Assembly: GCA_943357915.1 (NCBI GenBank)
Contig: CALRGQ010000004.1
Coordinates: 1-47,870, forward strand
DNA: 47,870 bases
Reading direction: 5' to 3'
From: Candidatus Peribacteria bacterium
GTDB lineage: Bacteria; Patescibacteriota; Gracilibacteria; Peribacterales; Peribacteraceae
Part shown: one piece after another, positions 3 through 36,968 of the stretch
How the letters are laid out: every line of letters starts with the position of its first letter
How positions within the stretch are numbered: the first letter of the stretch is position 1
Translations under genes and position numbers: made by a program
The notes under the pieces: generated by a model
Database searches by the model: none
The model's input: the letters and a program-made list of their open reading frames with translations, nothing else
What the model was told of the DNA's origin: nothing

Positions 3-146
3 CGATTCTTGTATGTTCCGTCTTTCTTGATCGAGCGCGAACTACATTCAGAACATATTTTTCATGGTAAACAGGGAAAATTTCATCATATCTTGGCTAA
101 GACAACAGGTAAACGCTTCATTTTAGCCCCCATAATTTTCCATTAA
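3..146 (+). CDS. C-terminal end of an unidentified protein (partial)
   Basis: An open frame enters from the left edge and ends at TAA 144-146, giving about 47 residues that finish ...KRFILAPIIFH. The tail is basic and aromatic and I do not recognise the family. Support is indirect: the stop is followed 17 bases later by a strong bidirectional terminator, and the frame converges on the minus-strand surface gene, as expected for the end of a plus-strand gene. A 47-codon open frame can arise by chance (roughly one in ten), so this is a tentative call. Confidence 0.45.
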   Translation, partial: RFLYVPSFLIERELHSEHIFHGKQGKFHHILAKTTGKRFILAPIIFH

Positions 147-157
147 GCCACGTCCTT

Positions 158-193
158 TAAAAAAACGCCCCGACTTTCGAGGCGTTCTTTTTT
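158..193. terminator. Bidirectional intrinsic terminator
   Basis: AACGCC (164-169) pairs with GGCGTT (181-186), and an inner CGA/TCG pairing extends the stem around a CTT loop. An A-run lies on the left and a T-run on the right, so it can stop transcription from both sides: the partial plus-strand gene and the minus-strand surface gene ending at 212. The same hairpin and flanking bases recur at 11051-11083 behind the third surface paralog. Confidence 0.8.
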
Positions 194-3224: not shown

Positions 3225-6200
3225 TTAACCCTGAAACGACGTACTGTTGATCACAGTCTCTGAAGATTCGGTCCCGAAGAACTGCGTTGAAGAACCAAAA
3301 TCCTGATCAAGCCAACGGATGTGGCTTTGCGATGGACTGAAAGCGGAAGCGGAGATATCAGAGAAGTTCTGGAGAGAGACCTGAAGCGTGGAGGCCGAAG
3401 TGTTGCTGATCTTGGCATTTACAACTTCTGCCTCAAGAACGAAGGTCACATCGGAACCAGGTTCAATTTCAGTATTTACTGACGAGCTCATGAGATTACT
3501 GCACGTAATGACAAGAGCATCAGTGGCAATTGCCTTGTCAGCAGTACATGTACTCTTCATCGTCGGATCAAGTTTGCTGTAGATCTTGAAGTCCGATGTG
3601 GCCAGAGCCGTCTGATCACCGGAACCAAGCAGGACGTTCGTGGCATTCACGTTGAAGATGATGTCAGAGAGCGTCCACCTGTTCATACCATTCTTCGTAT
3701 TATTTGCAGCGGCAGCACTGAACTTGAACTGACCAATAGCGCGCTGAGATCCTGTTGGGATTGCCGTGCCATCCGCATCAGGAGAAGCATTCTTGATGGA
3801 TGTGACTTTGGACAAAGTAACAAAATTCATTCCTCCAGCAACAGTATCATCATAGCCATACTGATTCCCTCCTATATATATTTTACCTGGGATGGTAGTC
3901 TCACCATCTCTGTTGAGCTCATTTGTCGAAAGAACACCTCTAGCTTCTACTGAAGCTTCAAACATGCCACCAGCTATTCCTATTTGTACTAACTCCCCAC
4001 TGATAGCACCATCCACGTCTGTTTTGACATGTGCTCGAACAAGAACGGGTAAAATAGATCCTTTAGGAACTACTAACTGATGATTTTGTAAAGCTACACA
4101 AAAAGTACCAGGAGAAAATCCAGTTCCGCAAACAGAACCTGTAGCAAAAGCAAAGGGTGTAGTCTGACCTTCGTAAAATAGTTCCAGTCTATCGACCGAA
4201 ATTACACCATGATCCACAGTATAGAAACGCAGAAGAGTCACATCTACTGGCTCGTATTCAGCGCGGAACTGCAGACGCAAAATCTCCTCTCCCAACGTTC
4301 CTCCTAGTAACTGGTGACTTCGGAGAGGAATAGAAGGTTGTGTGATGTAGAGATTGCCCTGAGAAATGAGCGTGTAGATCGTTGCTTGTGCAGTCGCGAC
4401 CGTTGTTTCACAGGTCGTGGCACAGACTCCATCGGTTTTGATGCCGCTAAGAGCAGTACCTTCATTCAATGTCTCAGAACCTACGTAGGCTGGAAGCGTC
4501 GTTGCAAATTTGAGTTGCAATGTATTGTCAACCAATGAAGAGGCAACATCAGCATGAACTTCAAAGATGACAGACCCCATAGCTGGGACAACAACGCCAC
4601 CTCCAAAGATATTATCGAATGTCACCAGTCCGCTTACAGGAGAAACTGCTGCATGGAAAACCGTATCGACGGAACCATTATTGTCGGTATCTGCCCAAAG
4701 TTTATAGTTTTGAGCATTGTTGAGTGATCCTTGTGCAGCATTGAAGCGAAAGGATGTTGCAACAATTACTTCATTATCTGCATGTGCCTCGAAACGGAGG
4801 AGATTGATATCTTTCTGATTCTTCACAGCGGTATCAGTGGTAGCCATGGCCTTCTGCACGATCGTGAGTTCGTTCTCGATCGCTGAAGTACACGTGACAT
4901 TCGTCGAGACAGTAGCGCTCGTGTTATTAGCAGTATTCGGGTCGATAGCACCGTTGGTCGTCACAGTGGCGACGTTCTGGATGGTCGAATCGCACACAGC
5001 TGCAGACGTACCGAATGCGAGAGTAAACGTCGCGGACTTGCCTGTGGCAAGGTTTCCTGCGTTACAGACAACTGAAGGACCGACGACTTTGCAGTACTTG
5101 GAAGACTGTGGCGCCGGCAAGAAAGTAAGGCCGGAAGGGATGACATCACGTGCGACGGTGTTCGTGACTGTTGGACCGGCATTCGCGACGGTGATGGAAT
5201 AGGTCAGAACAGCACCTTTTTCGATGGTCGTAGGGCCGGACTTCGTTATGGAGAGATCGGCCTCCTGACACGTAACAGTCGTTGTGACTGTGTTGCTCGT
5301 ATCATTTGCAGCATTCGGATCGTTGACCGCAGAGACGGAAGCGGTGTTACTGATCACTGATCCGCACGTAGCGTCAGTCGTAGAGAACTTGAGAGTAAAA
5401 TCACGAGATCCACCAGGACCAACTTTTCCTGAGCACGTCACAGCGGAACCGACGAGGCTACAACCGACGGGAGCGGAAGCGGCATCAAAGGTAACACCAG
5501 CTGGGACAGCATCTTTCATCGTGAAAGACCTCGTAGCCAAAGCACTATTGTTTTTCACTCTGAGGGCGTACGAAAGGAGATTACCTTTCAGAACCGTAAC
5601 AGGAGCGGACTTTGTGATGAAAAGATCTGGGCAAGTCACAGTCGTGGAGACGGTGTTGCTCGTGTCATTGGAAGCATTCGGATCGTAGACTGCGGAGACA
5701 GAGGCAGTGTTATTGATCACTGATTCGCAGGCTAAGGAATCCGTGGAGAACTTGAGGGAAATGCTGCGAGATTTACCAGCACCGACTCGCGTAGAACACG
5801 TTACTGAAGTACCAGCAACAGAGCATTCTTTGGAAGCCGAATCAAAGACAAGACCCTCTGGGATCAGGTCAGTCATCGTAAATGTCTGAGCAACCGAAGG
5901 GCCGTTGTTCGTCACTTTGATCGTGTACAAAAGAAGATTGCCTTTTGCGATACTCAAAGGAGCAGACTTTGTAATAGAGAAGTCTGGGCAAGCCACAGTC
6001 GTGGAGACGGTGTTGCTCGTATTATTAGCGAGATTTGGATCATTGAGTGAAGAAACAGTAGCAACATTCGTTACCGATGCTTCGCAACTTGCTGATGCTG
6101 TGGAATATTTCACGTTGAAAGCTCGTGAAGAACCAGCATTGATCTTCGTGGACACACACGTCACGGTCGTGCCAACGAGATTGCAGCCAGATGTAGCGGA

Positions 6201-10665: not shown

Positions 10666-10778
10666 CGGTAATCACAGCTTCGCTAAATTCGCTTAGGCAT
10701 GTTAGCCGTAAAAACATGTGACGATCATCATTATGAGAAAGATTTTTAGGGTGTACGATCGTACAGTCGCATGGTTTC

Positions 10779-10849
10779 GGGGCCCGACCAGGTGTGTGCG
10801 CAGGACTTGAGAACCCGGCGCTGGGGTTCGATTCCCCCGGGCTCCACCA
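10779..10849 (+). ncRNA. Alanine-tRNA-like element (acceptor, T-arm, CCA); possible tmRNA or tRNA relic
   Basis: GGGGCCC (10779-10785) can pair over seven bases with GGGCTCC (10839-10845), followed by A and an encoded CCA. The third pair is G-U, the alanyl-tRNA synthetase identity element, and the discriminator is A. A T-arm with the loop TTCGATT and four to five stem pairs precedes the acceptor. Between them are only about 34 bases, with a GCGC/GCGC helix but no normal D-arm or anticodon arm, so it is not a standard tRNA. It resembles the tRNA-like domain of tmRNA without the mRNA portion. It may be a degenerate tRNA-Ala or tmRNA 3' end, or a small tRNA-like RNA. I found no matching 5' half further upstream. 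Confidence 0.45.
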
Positions 10850-10939
10850 TTGCGACAATAATAGAGAATTATAAGAAAAACGCCCCGATTTCCGGAGCGA
10901 GATTCGTTTCCCCAGATGGGATACACAGGACTTGAGAAC
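10801..10939. repeat. Pair of 14-base direct repeats
   Basis: caggacttgagaac occurs at 10801-10814, inside the tRNA-like element, and again at 10926-10939. The bases between them hold the tRNA-like 3' end and an imperfect hairpin (CGCCCC/GGAGCG, 10882-10900). A 14-base repeat at this distance is very unlikely by chance and may mark a past insertion or local duplication. The remainder of 10666-10975 contains a short hairpin (CATGTT 10698-10703 / AACATG 10713-10718) and no gene that I can support. Confidence 0.5.
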
Positions 10940-10975
10940 AATATTATTCTAGTCTAAGCACTCAAAAGAGTCAAA

Positions 10976-11045
10976 CTTTTTACCCCATCTTCGCAAAATG
11001 TGCGTAAGCCTTGTTTGCCTGCGCCATCTTGTAGACGTCTTCTTT
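10976..11045 (-). pseudogene. Detached copy of the rpsG 3' end
   Basis: Seventy bases match the end of the intact rpsG (12971-13040) with three differences. Translated on the minus strand it gives EDVYKMAQANKAYAHFAKMG and the stop, and all three differences are synonymous (GCT/GCC, TAC/TAT, GCA/GCG). The copy therefore derives from a functional rpsG, not from decay of the neighbour. It lies just past the terminator of the surface gene at 11102-12859, so that gene is bracketed by an intact rpsG and a stranded rpsG tail. Confidence 0.85.
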
Positions 11046-11050
11046 TCCCA

Positions 11051-11083
11051 AAGAACGCCCCGACTTTCGAGGCGTTCTTTTTT
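11051..11083 (-). terminator. Intrinsic terminator of the third surface gene
   Basis: AAGAACGCC (11051-11059) pairs with GGCGTTCTT (11071-11079) with an inner CGA/TCG extension, and is flanked by T-runs. The sequence from about 11053 into the end of the coding region nearly matches 155-212, so terminator and gene end were duplicated together. Confidence 0.75.
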
Positions 11084-11101
11084 CAGACGATCTAGTTATT
11101 C

Positions 11102-12859
11102 CTAACCGTTATACGACGTTCCTTTAACGCCGCTGTCTGAAGACTCGATCCAGAGGAACGAAGCAGGAGAAGAAGCATTGTCTTTGTCGAGCCAACGAAC
11201 ATGACTACCGGCAGCACCGAAAGTCGTTGCGCTCATAGAATCAAAGTTCTGGAAAGAGACCTGAAGCGTCGATGCCGAAGTGTTGCTGATCTTGGCATTT
11301 ACAACTTCTGCCTCAAGAACGAAAGTGACGTCACTGTCAGGATCAATCTCGGTGTTCACGAGCGAGCTCGTGAGATTACTGCACGTAATGACAAGAGCAT
11401 CAGTGGCAATTGCCTTGTCAGCAGTACATGTACTCTTCATCGTCGGATCAAGTTTGCTGTAGATCTTGAAGTCCGATGTGGCCAGAGACGTCTGGTCACC
11501 AGTGCCAAGCAGCACGTTCGTAGCGTTGACGTTGAAGATGACGCCAGACAACGTGAAACTGTTGTTGCCGTTCTTCGTGTTATTTGCAGCGGCAGCACTG
11601 AACTTGAACTGACCGATTGCACGCTGAATACCAGTTGGGATAGCCGTGCCATTTGCATCAGGAGATGCGTTCGTGATGGACATAATTTTGGAATGCACAA
11701 CGGCGTTGTCTTTTCCTGTGATCGTTTGGGACGCAGCAGGAGAAGATGTGCCAATGAAGACTTCACCTTCTGCGAGAGCATCACCATCGTTCACAGAAAG
11801 GAGATTGGAAGAAGTGAGACCACGAGCCACAACACTTGAAACTGTACCAAACATGAGTTGTACTTGCTGACCCGAGACGGAGCCATCAACGTCGGTCTTT
11901 ACACGCAAACGAGCCAAGAGGTTCATATCTAATCCCTTCGGGGCAACGAACTCCTGAGCATCCATCTTGGCGCACATTGAGTTTGCAGGAGCGGATGTAC
12001 TGCCACAATTTGCAATAGTCGCAGAGGCAAAAGGAGTCGTCGAACCAACCTTGAAGAGCTCGATACGATCAACGTTCGTGGAGATCGAAGCTGCATTCGG
12101 GCCCGTTGCCGTAAAGACGAGATCCGTGACATCAATGTCTTCTTTCTCGGCACGGAACGTCAGACGCAGAACCTCATCACTCAACGTGCCACCGAGAGCC
12201 ATATGAGAACGTGTCGGAGTCGCTGATTTTGTAATGTACAGATCACCCGTTGAAGCACTAGGAGGAGGCGGAGGCCCACCTGCTGTAGCGCCACCCGTAC
12301 CTCCACTCGTGACTCCAGGAGAAGCACATGTAAGCATGAAAAGATTTTGCTGAATGTTCGTAGCGGTATTCACGTCTTCCGTAGACGTTGTCGCGATTGT
12401 CCAAACACTCAACGTCTTAGAATTGGTAGGAGGTTGAATATTTTTACATGCATCTACTTTTACACGAACAGTGAGAGTGCGCTCCTGATTACCACCCAAA
12501 TACATAATTTGAGGACATGTCACAATATTCTGATCATTCACCGTGCATCCCTTTTCAGAAGCTACTGCATCAAACGTCAAACCTGGAGGCAATATCATGT
12601 GGACGACAATAGTCTCAGCTTTTTCAGACCAATTATTTCGCACCTTCGGCTTCAGCGTCAGAGTAGTCTTATCCACTACATTCAGCGGGGCAGGCATCGT
12701 AAGAACGAGGTCAGTTGCCGTAGGCGTCTGGGTCATACCGCCATTAATGACACTCCCCGTAACAAACTTTTGAGAACCAATAAGTGCAGTTCCAACTGCA
12801 GCAATTGCGATGAGCGCAAGAAAAACTTTATTTTTATAAGTCAGAGAAACATTTTGCAT
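11102..12859 (-). CDS. Secreted or anchored surface protein, short paralog
   Basis: 585 residues. The N-terminus has a hydrophobic segment (about 11-30, VFLALIAIAAVGTALIG) that could be a signal peptide or an anchor; it is unlike the signal peptide shared by the two longer paralogs. Residues about 45-185 form one DUF11-like domain (LPPGLTFDAVASEKGCTV, NIVTCPQI). A Gly/Ala/Pro linker (about 186-207, ending GGPPPPP) leads to the conserved C-terminal module (about 210-585), which ends [16 protein letters not shown]. Parts of that module are nearly identical in DNA to the 212-2980 gene and other parts to the 3225-6437 gene, pointing to gene conversion. The ENELTI middle module is missing. It lies directly behind rpsG and is bracketed by rpsG tails, suggesting it was inserted there. 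Confidence 0.85.
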   Translation of the reverse strand: MQNVSLTYKNKVFLALIAIAAVGTALIGSQKFVTGSVINGGMTQTPTATDLVLTMPAPLNVVDKTTLTLKPKVRNNWSEKAETIVVHMILPPGLTFDAVASEKGCTVNDQNIVTCPQIMYLGGNQERTLTVRVKVDACKNIQPPTNSKTLSVWTIATTSTEDVNTATNIQQNLFMLTCASPGVTSGGTGGATAGGPPPPPSASTGDLYITKSATPTRSHMALGGTLSDEVLRLTFRAEKEDIDVTDLVFTATGPNAASISTNVDRIELFKVGSTTPFASATIANCGSTSAPANSMCAKMDAQEFVAPKGLDMNLLARLRVKTDVDGSVSGQQVQLMFGTVSSVVARGLTSSNLLSVNDGDALAEGEVFIGTSSPAASQTITGKDNAVVHSKIMSITNASPDANGTAIPTGIQRAIGQFKFSAAAANNTKNGNNSFTLSGVIFNVNATNVLLGTGDQTSLATSDFKIYSKLDPTMKSTCTADKAIATDALVITCSNLTSSLVNTEIDPDSDVTFVLEAEVVNAKISNTSASTLQVSFQNFDSMSATTFGAAGSHVRWLDKDNASSPASFLWIESSDSGVKGTSYNG

Positions 12860-12894
12860 ATATTTGTTTGTGTTAGAAATTAAGAAACTAATAC

Positions 12895-12922
12895 ATTATA
12901 CACTAATAACGTTTTATTACAA
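12895..12922 (-). promoter_or_regulatory. Promoter of the third surface gene
   Basis: On the minus strand, TTGTAA (12917-12922), 16 bases, TATAAT (12895-12900), giving a leader of about 30 bases. The promoter lies between rpsG and the gene, so expression need not depend on read-through from the ribosomal genes. Confidence 0.65.
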
Positions 12923-12974
12923 AGTTCGGCCAAAAACAGGTCTAGAAAGTATAAATAAGATTCTTTCAGGCTTT

Positions 12975-13433
12975 TTACCCCATCTTCGCAAAATGCGCAT
13001 AGGCCTTGTTTGCCTGCGCCATCTTGTAGACGTCTTCTTTCTTCTTCACCGCAGAACCCTGCTCTGCTGATGCGTCCAAAAGTTCTAGTGCAAGCTTTTC
13101 GGCCATCGGCATGCCTTTACGATCACGCGCAGCATTCAGGATCCAACGGATACTGAGTGAGAGCTGGCGCTTGGCGGGGACTTCGGTAGGAACCTGATAT
13201 ACGGCTCCGGCGATACGCTTAGGACGGACTTCAACGAGTGGCGTCGTATTAAGCAAAGCTTTGCTGAAGACCTCGAGTGGTGGATCTTTGGTACGAGTCT
13301 TAATAATGTCCAGAGCGTCTGCCAAGATCTGACGAGCGGTGGATTTCTTGCCTTGCTTCATGATGCAGTTCACGAATTTCTCCATGAGTGGATCAGAGCC
13401 TTTGGGAATGTATGCTTTCGGGAGGGTAGACAT
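12975..13433 (-). CDS. rpsG: 30S ribosomal protein S7
   Basis: 152 residues, close to the usual 155 or so. It opens MSTLPKAYIPKGSDPLMEKFVNCIM and carries the family landmarks KKSTARQI, RPKRIAGAVYQVP and NAARDRKGMPMAEKLALEL. S7 nucleates assembly of the 30S head and contacts the E-site tRNA. It is the last of three genes reading rpoC, rpsL, rpsG, with a 45-base gap after rpsL that is filled by a heptamer repeat. No Shine-Dalgarno sequence is visible before the ATG; the upstream stretch is T-rich. The typical next gene, fusA, is absent and is replaced by a surface protein gene. Confidence 0.97.
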   Translation of the reverse strand: MSTLPKAYIPKGSDPLMEKFVNCIMKQGKKSTARQILADALDIIKTRTKDPPLEVFSKALLNTTPLVEVRPKRIAGAVYQVPTEVPAKRQLSLSIRWILNAARDRKGMPMAEKLALELLDASAEQGSAVKKKEDVYKMAQANKAYAHFAKMG

Positions 13434-33604: not shown

Positions 33605-33852
33605 TCACGACTCCCTCACCCCAATCACTACCCAACCTCGCTTTTTCGCTATCAGTAAGCCATAAACCGAACATGCCACCCCAAGAATAAAGACGAAAAT
33701 TATCGATGCCCAATTATGACCTTCACGCGCTGATATTTCCAAATTCATCGGACTACCGGAGTCCGTAGAATCTGTTTGAGCCCTATAGCTAGCCGCATAT
33801 GACTTCACTTTAGCAGCCGCTTTTTTGGCAGCCGTAATCTTCCTGGCAGCAA
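33605..33852 (-). pseudogene. Detached 3' end of the LTD surface gene
   Basis: About 217 bases (33636-33852) match the 3' part of the gene at 34524-36968 (34629-34845) without gaps and with about 15 differences by my count. The fragment encodes the Ala/Lys-rich linker (AARKITAAKKAAAKVKSYAAS), a polar stretch and the C-terminal membrane helix (IIFVFILGVACSVYGLLIA), but ends with a different tail (VVIGVRES). An in-frame ATG gives a 67-residue reading frame, yet without a promoter or signal peptide it is probably not a gene. It lies just behind the HNH gene, so the HNH cassette sits between two copies of this tail. Confidence 0.8.
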
Positions 33853-33860
33853 TCGTATCT

Positions 33861-34253
33861 TTAACGCTCCAACAGCGTGGCTCTGAGTTCCAGCTGCCAG
33901 TCAGAGTTCATGTTCAGCACAGTAACCGTCGTGCGACCGACAGGAGTCTTTCCTGCGATATAAGCTCCGCGGAATTCAAAGTGATTCTGCCAGGCATCCA
34001 ATCTCGGATGAAAGAGCGGAGTGATTCGTGAGGTTTCAGGATCTCGCCCCGCGATGTTACTAGACTTCGAAAGATTGCAGTCAATGCACGCAAGTGCCAA
34101 GTTTTCGGAGACGTCAGTACCGCCGTGTTTTCGGGGATTGATATGCTCGATCTGCAGCGCCGCAAGAGGTGAATGGTCCTCATCAAGGCTACAATACTCG
34201 CAACGATTTCCAGCACGTTTCCGGACAAGCCGTTTCGTAGCGGCGTCCATCAT
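33861..34253 (-). CDS. HNH endonuclease
   Basis: 130 residues. The HNH fold is explicit: a zinc knuckle CEYC (18-21) and CIDC (56-59), with IEHINPRKHGG (H37) and NLALACIDCN between and after. The remainder (NIAGRDPETSRITPLFHPRLDAWQNHFEF, GRTTVTVLNMN) matches a known class of stand-alone bacterial HNH proteins. These are commonly encoded directly behind a small protein like the one here. Such enzymes nick or cut DNA; the biological role of this class is not established. The ATG overlaps the stop of the small partner gene (ATGA). Confidence 0.9.
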   Translation of the reverse strand: MMDAATKRLVRKRAGNRCEYCSLDEDHSPLAALQIEHINPRKHGGTDVSENLALACIDCNLSKSSNIAGRDPETSRITPLFHPRLDAWQNHFEFRGAYIAGKTPVGRTTVTVLNMNSDWQLELRATLLER

Positions 34254-34516
34254 GACTCGGAATTGTTCAGGAGTTTTTGGGCTTTGGCCTGTAAGATCGC
34301 GAAAAATTTGTTAGCTCGTACATAGCCGTCATATTCGTCCTGTTCATCCGACGTCAGTTCACCTTCATTGACCCTCTCGGCAAGGTCCCTGACCCGCTCC
34401 TGCAATCCTGAATCACCACGGTAATCCACGATTCCACGAGCCTGATCCACCGTAAAAAATTGTAGTATGGCGTCGGTTCCTCGATTGAATGCTGTGATCT
34501 TGATGGCTGTGCTCAT
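34250..34516 (-). CDS. Small partner protein of the HNH endonuclease
   Basis: 88 residues from the ATG at 34516, preferred over the in-frame ATG at 34522 because a TATAAT box lies six bases upstream of 34516. It shows the pattern I associate with small proteins encoded just before this HNH class: FFTVDQARGIVDYRGD, LQERVRDLAERVNEGELTSDEQDEYDGYVRANKFFAILQAKAQKLL. Its function is unknown; regulator, specificity factor or antitoxin-like partner are all possible. The four-base overlap with the HNH gene indicates equimolar, coupled synthesis. Confidence 0.85.
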   Translation of the reverse strand: MSTAIKITAFNRGTDAILQFFTVDQARGIVDYRGDSGLQERVRDLAERVNEGELTSDEQDEYDGYVRANKFFAILQAKAQKLLNNSES

Positions 34517-34522
34517 GGGCAC

Positions 34523-34528
34523 ATTATA
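34523..34528 (-). promoter_or_regulatory. -10 box of the HNH cassette, inside the LTD gene stop
   Basis: TATAAT on the minus strand lies six bases before the ATG at 34516 and contains the TAA stop of the LTD gene (34524-34526). The cassette thus begins transcription exactly where the host gene ends. Confidence 0.55.
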
Positions 34529-36968
34529 TCACAGTCTCAGCCGCTTCACAGACGGATTTCTGGAAATCACCGCAATCCTGCAATTTTTCAGCTTGAGGAA
34601 GCCGTGAAATGGTTCGAAACAGAATCCAGCCTTGCTTTTTCGCTACCAGTAATCCACAAACAGCACATGCCACCCCAAGAATAAAGACGAAAATTATCGA
34701 TGCCCAGTTATGACCTTCACGCGCTGAAATTTCCAGATTCACGGGACTACCGGAGTCCGTAGAATCTGTTTGAGCCCTATAGCTAGCCGCATATGACTTT
34801 ACTTTAGCAGCCGCTTTTTTAGCAGCCGTGATCTTCCTGGCAGCAGCTTTTGTAGCTGCAGTTTTCTTCACCGGGCTTACGCAAATATTGCTCTCACCCG
34901 GAGTGGGCTGGATTGTTTCACAGAAATCATTTTCAGTAGCTGCAAATGCCATGCCATTTTTGAGCTCCGGATACTCCAGAGATGAAATAATCTCACCGGT
35001 TGGTGAGATAAGACTGACGGTGTCACCAGCGTTTCTGAGACTGAGCTTGAGAGATGATGTGTAGATAAGAAGCTTTGATCCTGATGCGATCTTCAGCCCT
35101 TCTGGAAGAGCTTTTTGTGACTTTGCAGTTTTTAGTTTCCAACCTGAGAGGTCAACTGCTTTTTGGTTAAAATTCTCTATCTCAAGCCATTCTTGGGTCT
35201 TCCAATCAGTGTCAGTCATAGTCTGTGATACCGGAAATGGCGATGGGTATATCTCTGAAAGAGCAAGTCTGATTGCTGAAAAGTCGGTCTGAGAGTCAGG
35301 CTGCAATTCTGATTGTGAAGGCGCGAGACTTTCTTCCAGATCCAGAAATTCCTGCTTCTTTATGTACTGTGACTTTGTATCCGCCACCCACAGTTTGGAA
35401 ATAATCATCTGTGTTTCAGACAAAATTCCACCCTCGATATACACATGTCCAAGCAAACGTCCCATGTCATCCCACAGTTCTGTATCAAATTGTAGTTCAA
35501 TATTTTTGTTTTCAATAAGGGCTCGGAGAGTTTCAAATGATCCTACTTTTTCTTTTCTTACAGGATCTAATTTCTCGTTCACGCCTAATATCCTGACATT
35601 CACAGTATCGTCACCAAGAATTGCCGAAGCATCGGGCTCAAGCTGAAGAATAAAAGTGACGGGACCTGTCACCTTCACGACTCTCCCCCGCACAGTCAAA
35701 TCCCGAATATCGTCTGGAAAATAGATTCTGTCTTCCTCGGTAGATTTCCAAGGAACACTAGAAAGAGCGATGCCAGACGGTGTCATCAGTTGCAACTTGG
35801 AAGCAGTATTCGGCAACTTAAATTTCAGCTCACTATCGTAGATCCGCAGAGTCTCCCGAGGACCGATGGCTCCAGCCAATATATATGACTGTAGCTTTGT
35901 CTCCCCCACTGCCAGTTTCCAACCTCGCAGATCGACCGCCCGATCTTCAAGATTTTTGATCTCAATCCACTCTTTGCCAGTATCAGTTCCGACTGGGTTC
36001 GGAAGAGCACCAATGATGATCAGTTTTGACCCGTCATACAACGTCGACTGCACAGAAGAATTCTGAGGAGAGGCAGGATCAGCAAGAACCTGGACTATTT
36101 GTTCTTGTATTAATGTGATATCACACTGATTTTTGGCTTCCAGTCTAACTGTAAAACTTCCAACTTGCGTGAAAGAATGCGATGGCGGATTACAACTCGT
36201 ACTCGAAAAACCATCATCATATGACCATGCACAACTCACGCCTGACAGACTGCCAGCAGTGGCAACAGCCTGAAAGTTTACCGTCGTCTTTCCGACCCCC
36301 GCAAGCAAGCCGGATTGTATGGCGATTGCGATCTCGAGTGAGTCGGTACATGAAGGCGGTTCGTCGGGGGGGTCATCTGGTGGATCAGAAGCAAATGAAA
36401 ATCCAGGTGTACCAAAAATTGGCGAGCCGTCATCAAAGCCAACAGAAAGCGTACTTGTGACCCAGTTTTCTTTGAGTGTTCCGGGAGCCAGTACATCAAG
36501 TCTTTCCATACTCGCTTTTGGCCCTCCACCGGACGGATTATCACCAGCAAATGGTGCACCTGCACCGTCATCCACTTCATCAATCAGTGTGTTTTCGGCA
36601 TTCCGAAGCCGCAGCAGGAGCTTCGTATTCGGCAAACTAAGCGTGGAAGAAACACCAAACGACTCTGCAAGCAGGCGCGAATTTGCAGCTGATTTCGATG
36701 CGATCACCAGATACTCACCGGCAGCAATGACCGCTCCAGTCGCAAACCGAAACGAGATAACTTCTTTGCCACTGGAATTAACAGATGTAATAGTCCAACC
36801 CGAGAGATCGATATCTTCTGCCTCCGGATTGGCAATCTCCAACCATTCGTCTGCAGTACTTTGGTCACTGCCCATCCACATAACTTCGCTGATCACCGGA
36901 TTGGCATGAACAAGCACTGGAGAAGACAGAACGATGAGGAAGAAAAGAAAAGAGATGAGGCAACGCAT
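34524..36968 (-). CDS. Secreted multidomain LTD/PKD/nuclease-fold surface protein with C-terminal anchor
   Basis: 814 residues. Signal peptide (1-22, ending VHA|NP). Three lamin-tail domains (about 23-150, 305-410, 566-670), each with ISEVMW/EWLEI...DLSGW...LRNAGD words. A PKD-like domain (about 210-290, WSYDDGFSST...HSFTQVGSFTVRLEA). A staphylococcal-nuclease-like domain (about 424-543, VRGRVVKVTGP, VRILGVNEK, DDMGRLLGHVYIEGG) in which the Arg and Glu positions survive but the DGDT motif is lost, so catalysis is doubtful. An Ala/Lys-rich linker leads to one membrane helix (about 753-774). LTD and nuclease-fold combinations are known in secreted nucleases and envelope proteins; here DNA binding at the surface, perhaps for uptake, is a guess. 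Its 3' end is duplicated beyond the HNH cassette. Confidence 0.87.
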   Translation of the reverse strand: MRCLISFLFFLIVLSSPVLVHANPVISEVMWMGSDQSTADEWLEIANPEAEDIDLSGWTITSVNSSGKEVISFRFATGAVIAAGEYLVIASKSAANSRLLAESFGVSSTLSLPNTKLLLRLRNAENTLIDEVDDGAGAPFAGDNPSGGGPKASMERLDVLAPGTLKENWVTSTLSVGFDDGSPIFGTPGFSFASDPPDDPPDEPPSCTDSLEIAIAIQSGLLAGVGKTTVNFQAVATAGSLSGVSCAWSYDDGFSSTSCNPPSHSFTQVGSFTVRLEAKNQCDITLIQEQIVQVLADPASPQNSSVQSTLYDGSKLIIIGALPNPVGTDTGKEWIEIKNLEDRAVDLRGWKLAVGETKLQSYILAGAIGPRETLRIYDSELKFKLPNTASKLQLMTPSGIALSSVPWKSTEEDRIYFPDDIRDLTVRGRVVKVTGPVTFILQLEPDASAILGDDTVNVRILGVNEKLDPVRKEKVGSFETLRALIENKNIELQFDTELWDDMGRLLGHVYIEGGILSETQMIISKLWVADTKSQYIKKQEFLDLEESLAPSQSELQPDSQTDFSAIRLALSEIYPSPFPVSQTMTDTDWKTQEWLEIENFNQKAVDLSGWKLKTAKSQKALPEGLKIASGSKLLIYTSSLKLSLRNAGDTVSLISPTGEIISSLEYPELKNGMAFAATENDFCETIQPTPGESNICVSPVKKTAATKAAARKITAAKKAAAKVKSYAASYRAQTDSTDSGSPVNLEISAREGHNWASIIFVFILGVACAVCGLLVAKKQGWILFRTISRLPQAEKLQDCGDFQKSVCEAAETVI

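Follow-up and report, generated by a model that had tools for sequence, protein, structure and literature searches.

Stranded gene ends in Candidatus Peribacteraceae suggest integrase-free gain of accessory genes by recombination at gene ends

Introduction

How does a surface gene come to stand between the 3' end of an intact rpsG and a second, stranded copy of that same end? The arrangement occurs in a window of 47,870 nucleotides, the whole stretch of DNA analyzed here, which is an entire contig (C4) of a 1.39-Mb, 66-contig metagenome-assembled genome (MAG). The host is a member of Candidatus Peribacteraceae (Patescibacteria), the group that also contains the nearest named relatives of the window. 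The original prediction held that DNA had entered at the 3' end of a conserved gene and rebuilt it, and that this may be a route by which the lineage swaps surface genes. Our analysis supports the proposed topology. The locus is probably an integrase-free accessory-gene islet, formed when DNA from a diverged relative recombined at the gene end.

An rpsG tail behind a surface gene

The intact rpsG encodes ribosomal protein S7 (152 aa; 175 bits against PF00177, Pfam S7) and occupies positions 12975-13433 on the reverse strand. It is the sole full rpsG of the genome and its product shares 91-92% amino acid identity with those of congeners. The only further trace of the gene is a tail stranded at 10976-11045, also on the reverse strand. 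A repeat search defined a direct repeat of 75 bp (10971-11045 versus 12966-13040; spacing 1995) with 93% identity. Counted over 70 bp, with the last base four positions past the stop codon, the stranded tail matches the 3' end of the intact gene (12971-13040, reverse strand) at 96% identity. Self-BLAST also recovers this repeat, with an E value of 2e-25, and it is therefore not a chance match. The anticipated 70-bp repeat with three synonymous differences was confirmed, the changes being GCC/GCT, TAT/TAC and GCG/GCA. The tail comprises about 22-23 codons with an in-frame stop and translates as KEDVYKMAQANKAYAHFAKMG followed by that stop, identical in protein sequence to the end of the intact gene.

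A decayed paralogue would leave a fragment, as expected if the tail were the old remnant of a second complete rpsG. This origin, which had been named as a reason to reject the prediction, is extremely improbable. The fragment retains its frame, its stop codon and 96% identity, the rpsG genes of congeners are single-copy with simple spacers, and at all eight loci of this kind in the genome the fragment lies in order behind the intact gene.

The sole open reading frame (ORF) between the two copies (11102-12859, reverse strand) encodes a secreted or surface protein of 585 aa with a DUF11 domain. Its C-terminal all-beta module, spanning residues about 200-585, is common to two other genes, making three such surface genes in the window, and to long proteins throughout Peribacteraceae. 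A fold search of this module against the PDB returned all-beta, adhesin-like structures at weak scores only (TM 0.2-0.3). A putative promoter, TTGTAA-16-TATAAT, assigned by consensus match only, is located at 12895-12922, and a strong hairpin or terminator (-23 kcal/mol) at 11050-11080 directly abuts the stranded tail, both on the reverse strand. The stretch 11050-11100 is 94% identical to 160-210, which lies behind a paralogous surface gene. The block encodes no integrase. Its description as one surface gene with a promoter, a terminator and no integrase hence stands, with the promoter resting on the consensus match. The DNA behind the stranded tail (10876-10975, reverse strand), which would be the recipient's 3' spacer on the preferred model, carries a terminator at 10899-10881 and has no similarity to the DNA behind the intact rpsG.

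A further candidate, a tmRNA or tRNA integration remnant adjoining the tail, was rejected: positions 10750-10849 contain a structured tRNA-like RNA, and the tmRNA of the genome is intact on contig C48. This RNA, on the forward strand, has an encoded CCA, a T-arm and a second arm that is long; a hairpin upstream of it is conserved (GGTGTACGATCGTAC). G004, G006 and G027 together contain six diverged copies, with compensatory double changes at 12 of 29 consensus pairs. It gave no gathering match in Rfam, was not called by ARAGORN on the window, and matched the tmRNA model below threshold (25 bits).

Insertions behind rpsG in relatives

In relatives, rpsG is followed by fusA. The spacers between them are free of inserts in two congeners (187 bp in G001, 169 bp in G002). 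Across 42 loci, a few of which represent one genome from two collections, spacer length ranges from 18 to 3199 bp (median 597) and the small ORFs differ, including two Y1 transposases (Y1_Tnp) and one GIY-YIG nuclease. The rpsG-fusA spacer is therefore a family-wide insertion hotspot. Both patterns expected in relatives, namely empty sites (the congener spacers below 200 bp) and different cargo (the 42 loci), were thus observed. In L069, stranded ends of both genes, an rpsG tail and a fusA head, flank a single spacer, and L207 also has a stranded fusA head. Among the relatives examined, no donor genome in which rpsG is followed by this surface gene was found. An apparent second rpsG tail in G019 and a split rpsG in G026 were dismissed as contig breaks or overlaps.

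In the genome of the window, fusA is on another contig (C22), where a small gene pair precedes it. On its sequence, this pair ahead of fusA reads as toxin-antitoxin-like, and the end of C22 (L180, 6300-7349) looks like transposase sequence; its terminal stretch resembles window positions 124-163. With fusA behind such a pair on a contig that ends in this way, the old rpsG-fusA neighbourhood thus appears to have been opened up.

Displaced ends of other genes

Stranded 3' tails of eight genes were identified in 1.08 Mb of the genome. All eight lie downstream of their own gene, from which they are separated by one to three accessory genes (toxin-antitoxin, HNH, PIN, NYN). In addition to rpsG with its surface gene (1.9-kb insert), they comprise an LTD surface gene (HNH and a 90-aa ORF), sodA (NYN), dut (PhdYefM/ParE), an M50 peptidase gene (YqcI-like and TrmB-like), deoxyhypusine synthase (DS; PIN and a 53-aa ORF), glycyl-tRNA synthetase (a 206-aa ORF) and a 533-aa gene on contig C8, where three tails in series record repeated insertion. 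The targets are mostly housekeeping genes and the flanking repeats measure 57-220 bp. The same 1.08 Mb contains six gene-head duplications, five of them upstream. Four further cases were detected in 1.39 Mb from relatives: zwf in the single-contig genome G031, a T4SS coupling protein gene in G030 (1.07-Mb contig), and one each in L074 and L071. Displaced tails lie downstream of the rebuilt gene in 11 of 11 cases.

The window itself contains a second islet with the topology seen at rpsG (33632-34845), with all features on the reverse strand. Here, the 3' part of the LTD/PKD surface gene (34524-36968) is duplicated as a stranded copy of 220 bp (33632-33851) that is 93% identical to 34626-34845. 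The cargo consists of an HNH endonuclease (33861-34253), classified as PtuB-like by PADLOC, and the 90-aa ORF (34250-34522).

A protein-level scan agrees with this survey and adds a fusA tail (L192), L049 and dut in G024. Several targets recur independently. Stranded dut tails occur in three genera with different inserts (the genome studied, G023 and G024), rpsG is used both here and in L069, and fusA contributes the tail in L192 and the heads in L069 and L207. The survey thresholds pass over short or old scars. Applied to 56 loci from other phyla (0.90 Mb), the survey itself returned zero cases; these controls are all rpsG neighbourhoods and so an imperfect match, yet the rpsG neighbourhoods of Peribacteraceae do yield cases.

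On this evidence, rpsG is not special: scars affect many genes and occur in several genera, and 5' gene ends are involved too. Likewise, the proposed route for swapping surface genes proves too narrow: only one of the eight tail scars holds clear surface cargo, and the others contain toxin-antitoxin, HNH, PIN, NYN or unknown genes. Two surface genes of the window share a 449-bp patch between their C-terminal modules (3364-3812 versus 11244-11692) with 87% identity, and are mostly about 50-70% identical outside it. From this contrast, the patch is likely to reflect gene conversion. The surface genes of the window therefore seem to recombine, but only one clear tail islet carries one.

Misassembly is a natural concern for a MAG in 66 contigs. 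The two tails resemble two strain alleles, and strain variants of a gene end might have been misjoined, much as the apparent second tail in G019 proved to be a contig break. We consider this very unlikely for the scars as a whole. There are no Ns, the cargo between the copies is coherent, and scars appear in several independent assemblies, including the single contig of G031 and the 1.07-Mb contig of G030. The dut cargo is also present beside dut in the congener G002 (75% nucleotide identity).

Recombinases and junction motifs

Integrative elements provide a precedent for such a topology. The 3' ends of rpsI, rpmG and rplL serve as targets for ICEs and IMEs in Streptococcus salivarius, where integrase-less CIMEs (1.2-13 kb) and microCIMEs (130-220 bp) are also found (PMC7563491). 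The islets resemble these in that integrase-less cargo is flanked by a ribosomal gene tail and in their tandem accretion. If they were CIME-like remnants, the tails would be the attL and attR sites of tyrosine-integrase elements at gene 3' ends, with the integrase lost or supplied in trans. The identical topology (PMC7563491) and the serial tails on C8 fit this explanation, which is nevertheless rather unlikely. At least eight unrelated genes are targeted and gene heads are used as well, no common att core motif was seen by eye at the junctions, and no integrase-bearing partner was found. The whole genome encodes one Xer-sized tyrosine recombinase, along with two large serine recombinases. No recombinase was found in the scanned cargo, and ten sampled ORFs, nine from rpsG-fusA spacers and one from a RAYT islet, gave no integrase match in Pfam. 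The variety of the cargo (PhdYefM/ParE, NYN, PIN, HNH and others) means that no single transposon would explain the set.

Hairpins are present at some junctions and absent at others. REP-like palindromes (CCCTGAGC...GTCGAAGGG or TGAGCTTGTCGAA) lie exactly between the intact gene and the stranded tail in L192 (G035), L049 (G005) and L069. In 2.48 Mb of Peribacteraceae there are 14 instances of the paired motif, against none in 0.90 Mb of controls. On contig C2 of the same genome (L216, 10220-11292), a Y1/RAYT-like transposase gene is flanked by 125-bp direct repeats. In the congener G002 (L315), a REP-like insertion lies apparently in frame inside dut, which is about 12 codons longer. The islets are similar to REP elements with Y1/RAYT transposases in these three tail junctions, and in the Y1_Tnp genes found in two rpsG-fusA spacers and between the repeats on C2. 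They differ in that most have no REP, and REP movement is not known to strand gene tails. The palindromes at junctions and the Y1 transposases in spacers suggest a possible source of breaks.

Codon differences between paired copies

The differences between intact and stranded copies, whose divergence ranges from 0 to 17%, are predominantly synonymous. Pooled over 11 pairs, 74 of 107 differences are synonymous and 33 nonsynonymous, against an expectation of 22% synonymous (p = 3e-25), and pN/pS is about 0.12. A model of decay after stranding raises the expected synonymous share to about 33-37%. The eight pairs from the genome itself, with about 59 synonymous differences of 86, depart from it with p about 3e-9 to 1e-11. 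The copies therefore diverged mainly while both were coding, in two lineages. The fusA tail in L192 is the extreme case: about one base in three is changed, yet the encoded peptide is nearly identical. The original prediction that the stranded copy came from a working rpsG is strengthened by the pooled test of 11 loci; rpsG alone, with three of three differences synonymous, is weak evidence and only suggestive of descent from two alleles. Comparison of the three rpsG differences with relatives, as a test for mosaicism, gave no clear native copy.

In rpsG, dut, M50 and DS, the copies cease to be homologous at the stop codon or just after it (+0 to +5 nt); elsewhere they do so before it, and homology never reaches deep into the 3' UTR. 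This limit is as expected if the alleles derive from organisms distant enough that coding ends alone would align.

These patterns bear on the closest published parallel, insertion with long target duplication (Nobusato et al. 2000). In Helicobacter pylori, it is described mostly for restriction-modification genes, flanked by repeats of roughly 100 bp (PMC1643837, PMC3874152, PMC3031569, PMC4978471). The present scars are alike in having accessory, often selfish genes between direct repeats of about 100 bp and no recognizable transposon; the insert is likewise defined against the empty site of relatives (G001, G002). In contrast, the repeats here are gene 3' (or 5') ends with mostly synonymously diverged copies, the scars are genome-wide and in Patescibacteria, and the cargo consists of toxin-antitoxin, HNH, PIN, NYN or surface genes, with no restriction-modification system in the scanned cargo.

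A true duplication would require a transposition-like event that copied 60-220 bp of the resident gene end, followed by divergence. The H. pylori pattern speaks for such an event (PMC3874152, PMC3031569, PMC1643837), and rpsG taken alone is compatible with it. It is unlikely for the set of scars. The excess of synonymous changes speaks against a duplicated target that then decayed: it is much larger than a decaying copy would show (p about 3e-9 or less), and the differences are of the coding type, not those of a duplicated resident target. In addition, the repeat boundary is always at or before the stop codon and not anywhere in the UTR.

Recombination at gene ends

Recombination at the gene end with DNA of a diverged relative remains the best explanation. 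It is based on the topology, the empty site in congeners, the recurrence in several genera with unrelated cargo, the absence of a recombinase from the cargo, and the divergence of the copies as two functional coding sequences. The donor would be a diverged relative, whose DNA would carry the last bases of its own rpsG, then the surface gene and terminator. Once this DNA had recombined with the recipient's chromosome at the 3' end of rpsG, its tail would complete the gene and the cargo would arrive behind it. The resident tail and the old 3' spacer would be pushed about 2 kb downstream and stranded, such that the stranded copy is presumably the resident's and the rebuilt end the donor's. Once in place, the flanking direct repeats would permit the islet to loop out. 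Natural competence is a candidate route of entry. It has been reported for Patescibacteria, together with recombination genes (PMC12455944).

The left side would be joined by homologous recombination. The right side could be accounted for in two ways: a circle containing tail and cargo might integrate by a single crossover, the route suggested for rhs; alternatively, linear DNA might form an illegitimate right-hand junction, i.e. homology-facilitated illegitimate recombination. Some pairs count against the proposal, being just 83% identical over 62-81 bp. This is short and diverged for RecA-type recombination, and so the crossover may have occurred within the gene upstream of the repeat, or the event may have been illegitimate.

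The displacement of rhs C-terminal tips is similar in that a conserved gene acquires a new 3' end together with downstream cargo, while its old tip moves downstream; Jackson et al. 2009 (PMC2935791) proposed homologous recombination through circular intermediates. It differs in that the tips of rhs genes are non-homologous toxins that follow identical core fragments, whereas the tails displaced here encode nearly the same peptide and any conserved gene may serve as target. The set differs from the known cases in its many unrelated targets, its toxin-antitoxin, nuclease and surface cargo, its synonymously diverged tails and its host phylum. A limited literature search found no description of such scars in Patescibacteria.

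Implications

As a tentative generalization, Patescibacteria may possess a recombinase-free form of mobility in which small accessory genes travel joined to the final 50-200 bp of a neighbouring core gene. In another species they would recombine at the end of that gene, rebuilding it and coming to lie behind it, and they could stack one behind another and loop out through the flanking tails. The origin of insertions with long target duplication also becomes testable, because import of a donor allele and duplication of a target predict different codon patterns. A stranded, synonymously diverged gene tail is a simple scar to detect, and in thousands of MAGs it can serve to map recent gene gain, donor divergence and gene-end hotspots. 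More broadly, the scars suggest how the tiny, integrase-poor genomes of the candidate phyla radiation acquire toxin-antitoxin, nuclease and surface genes while leaving their essential genes unbroken.
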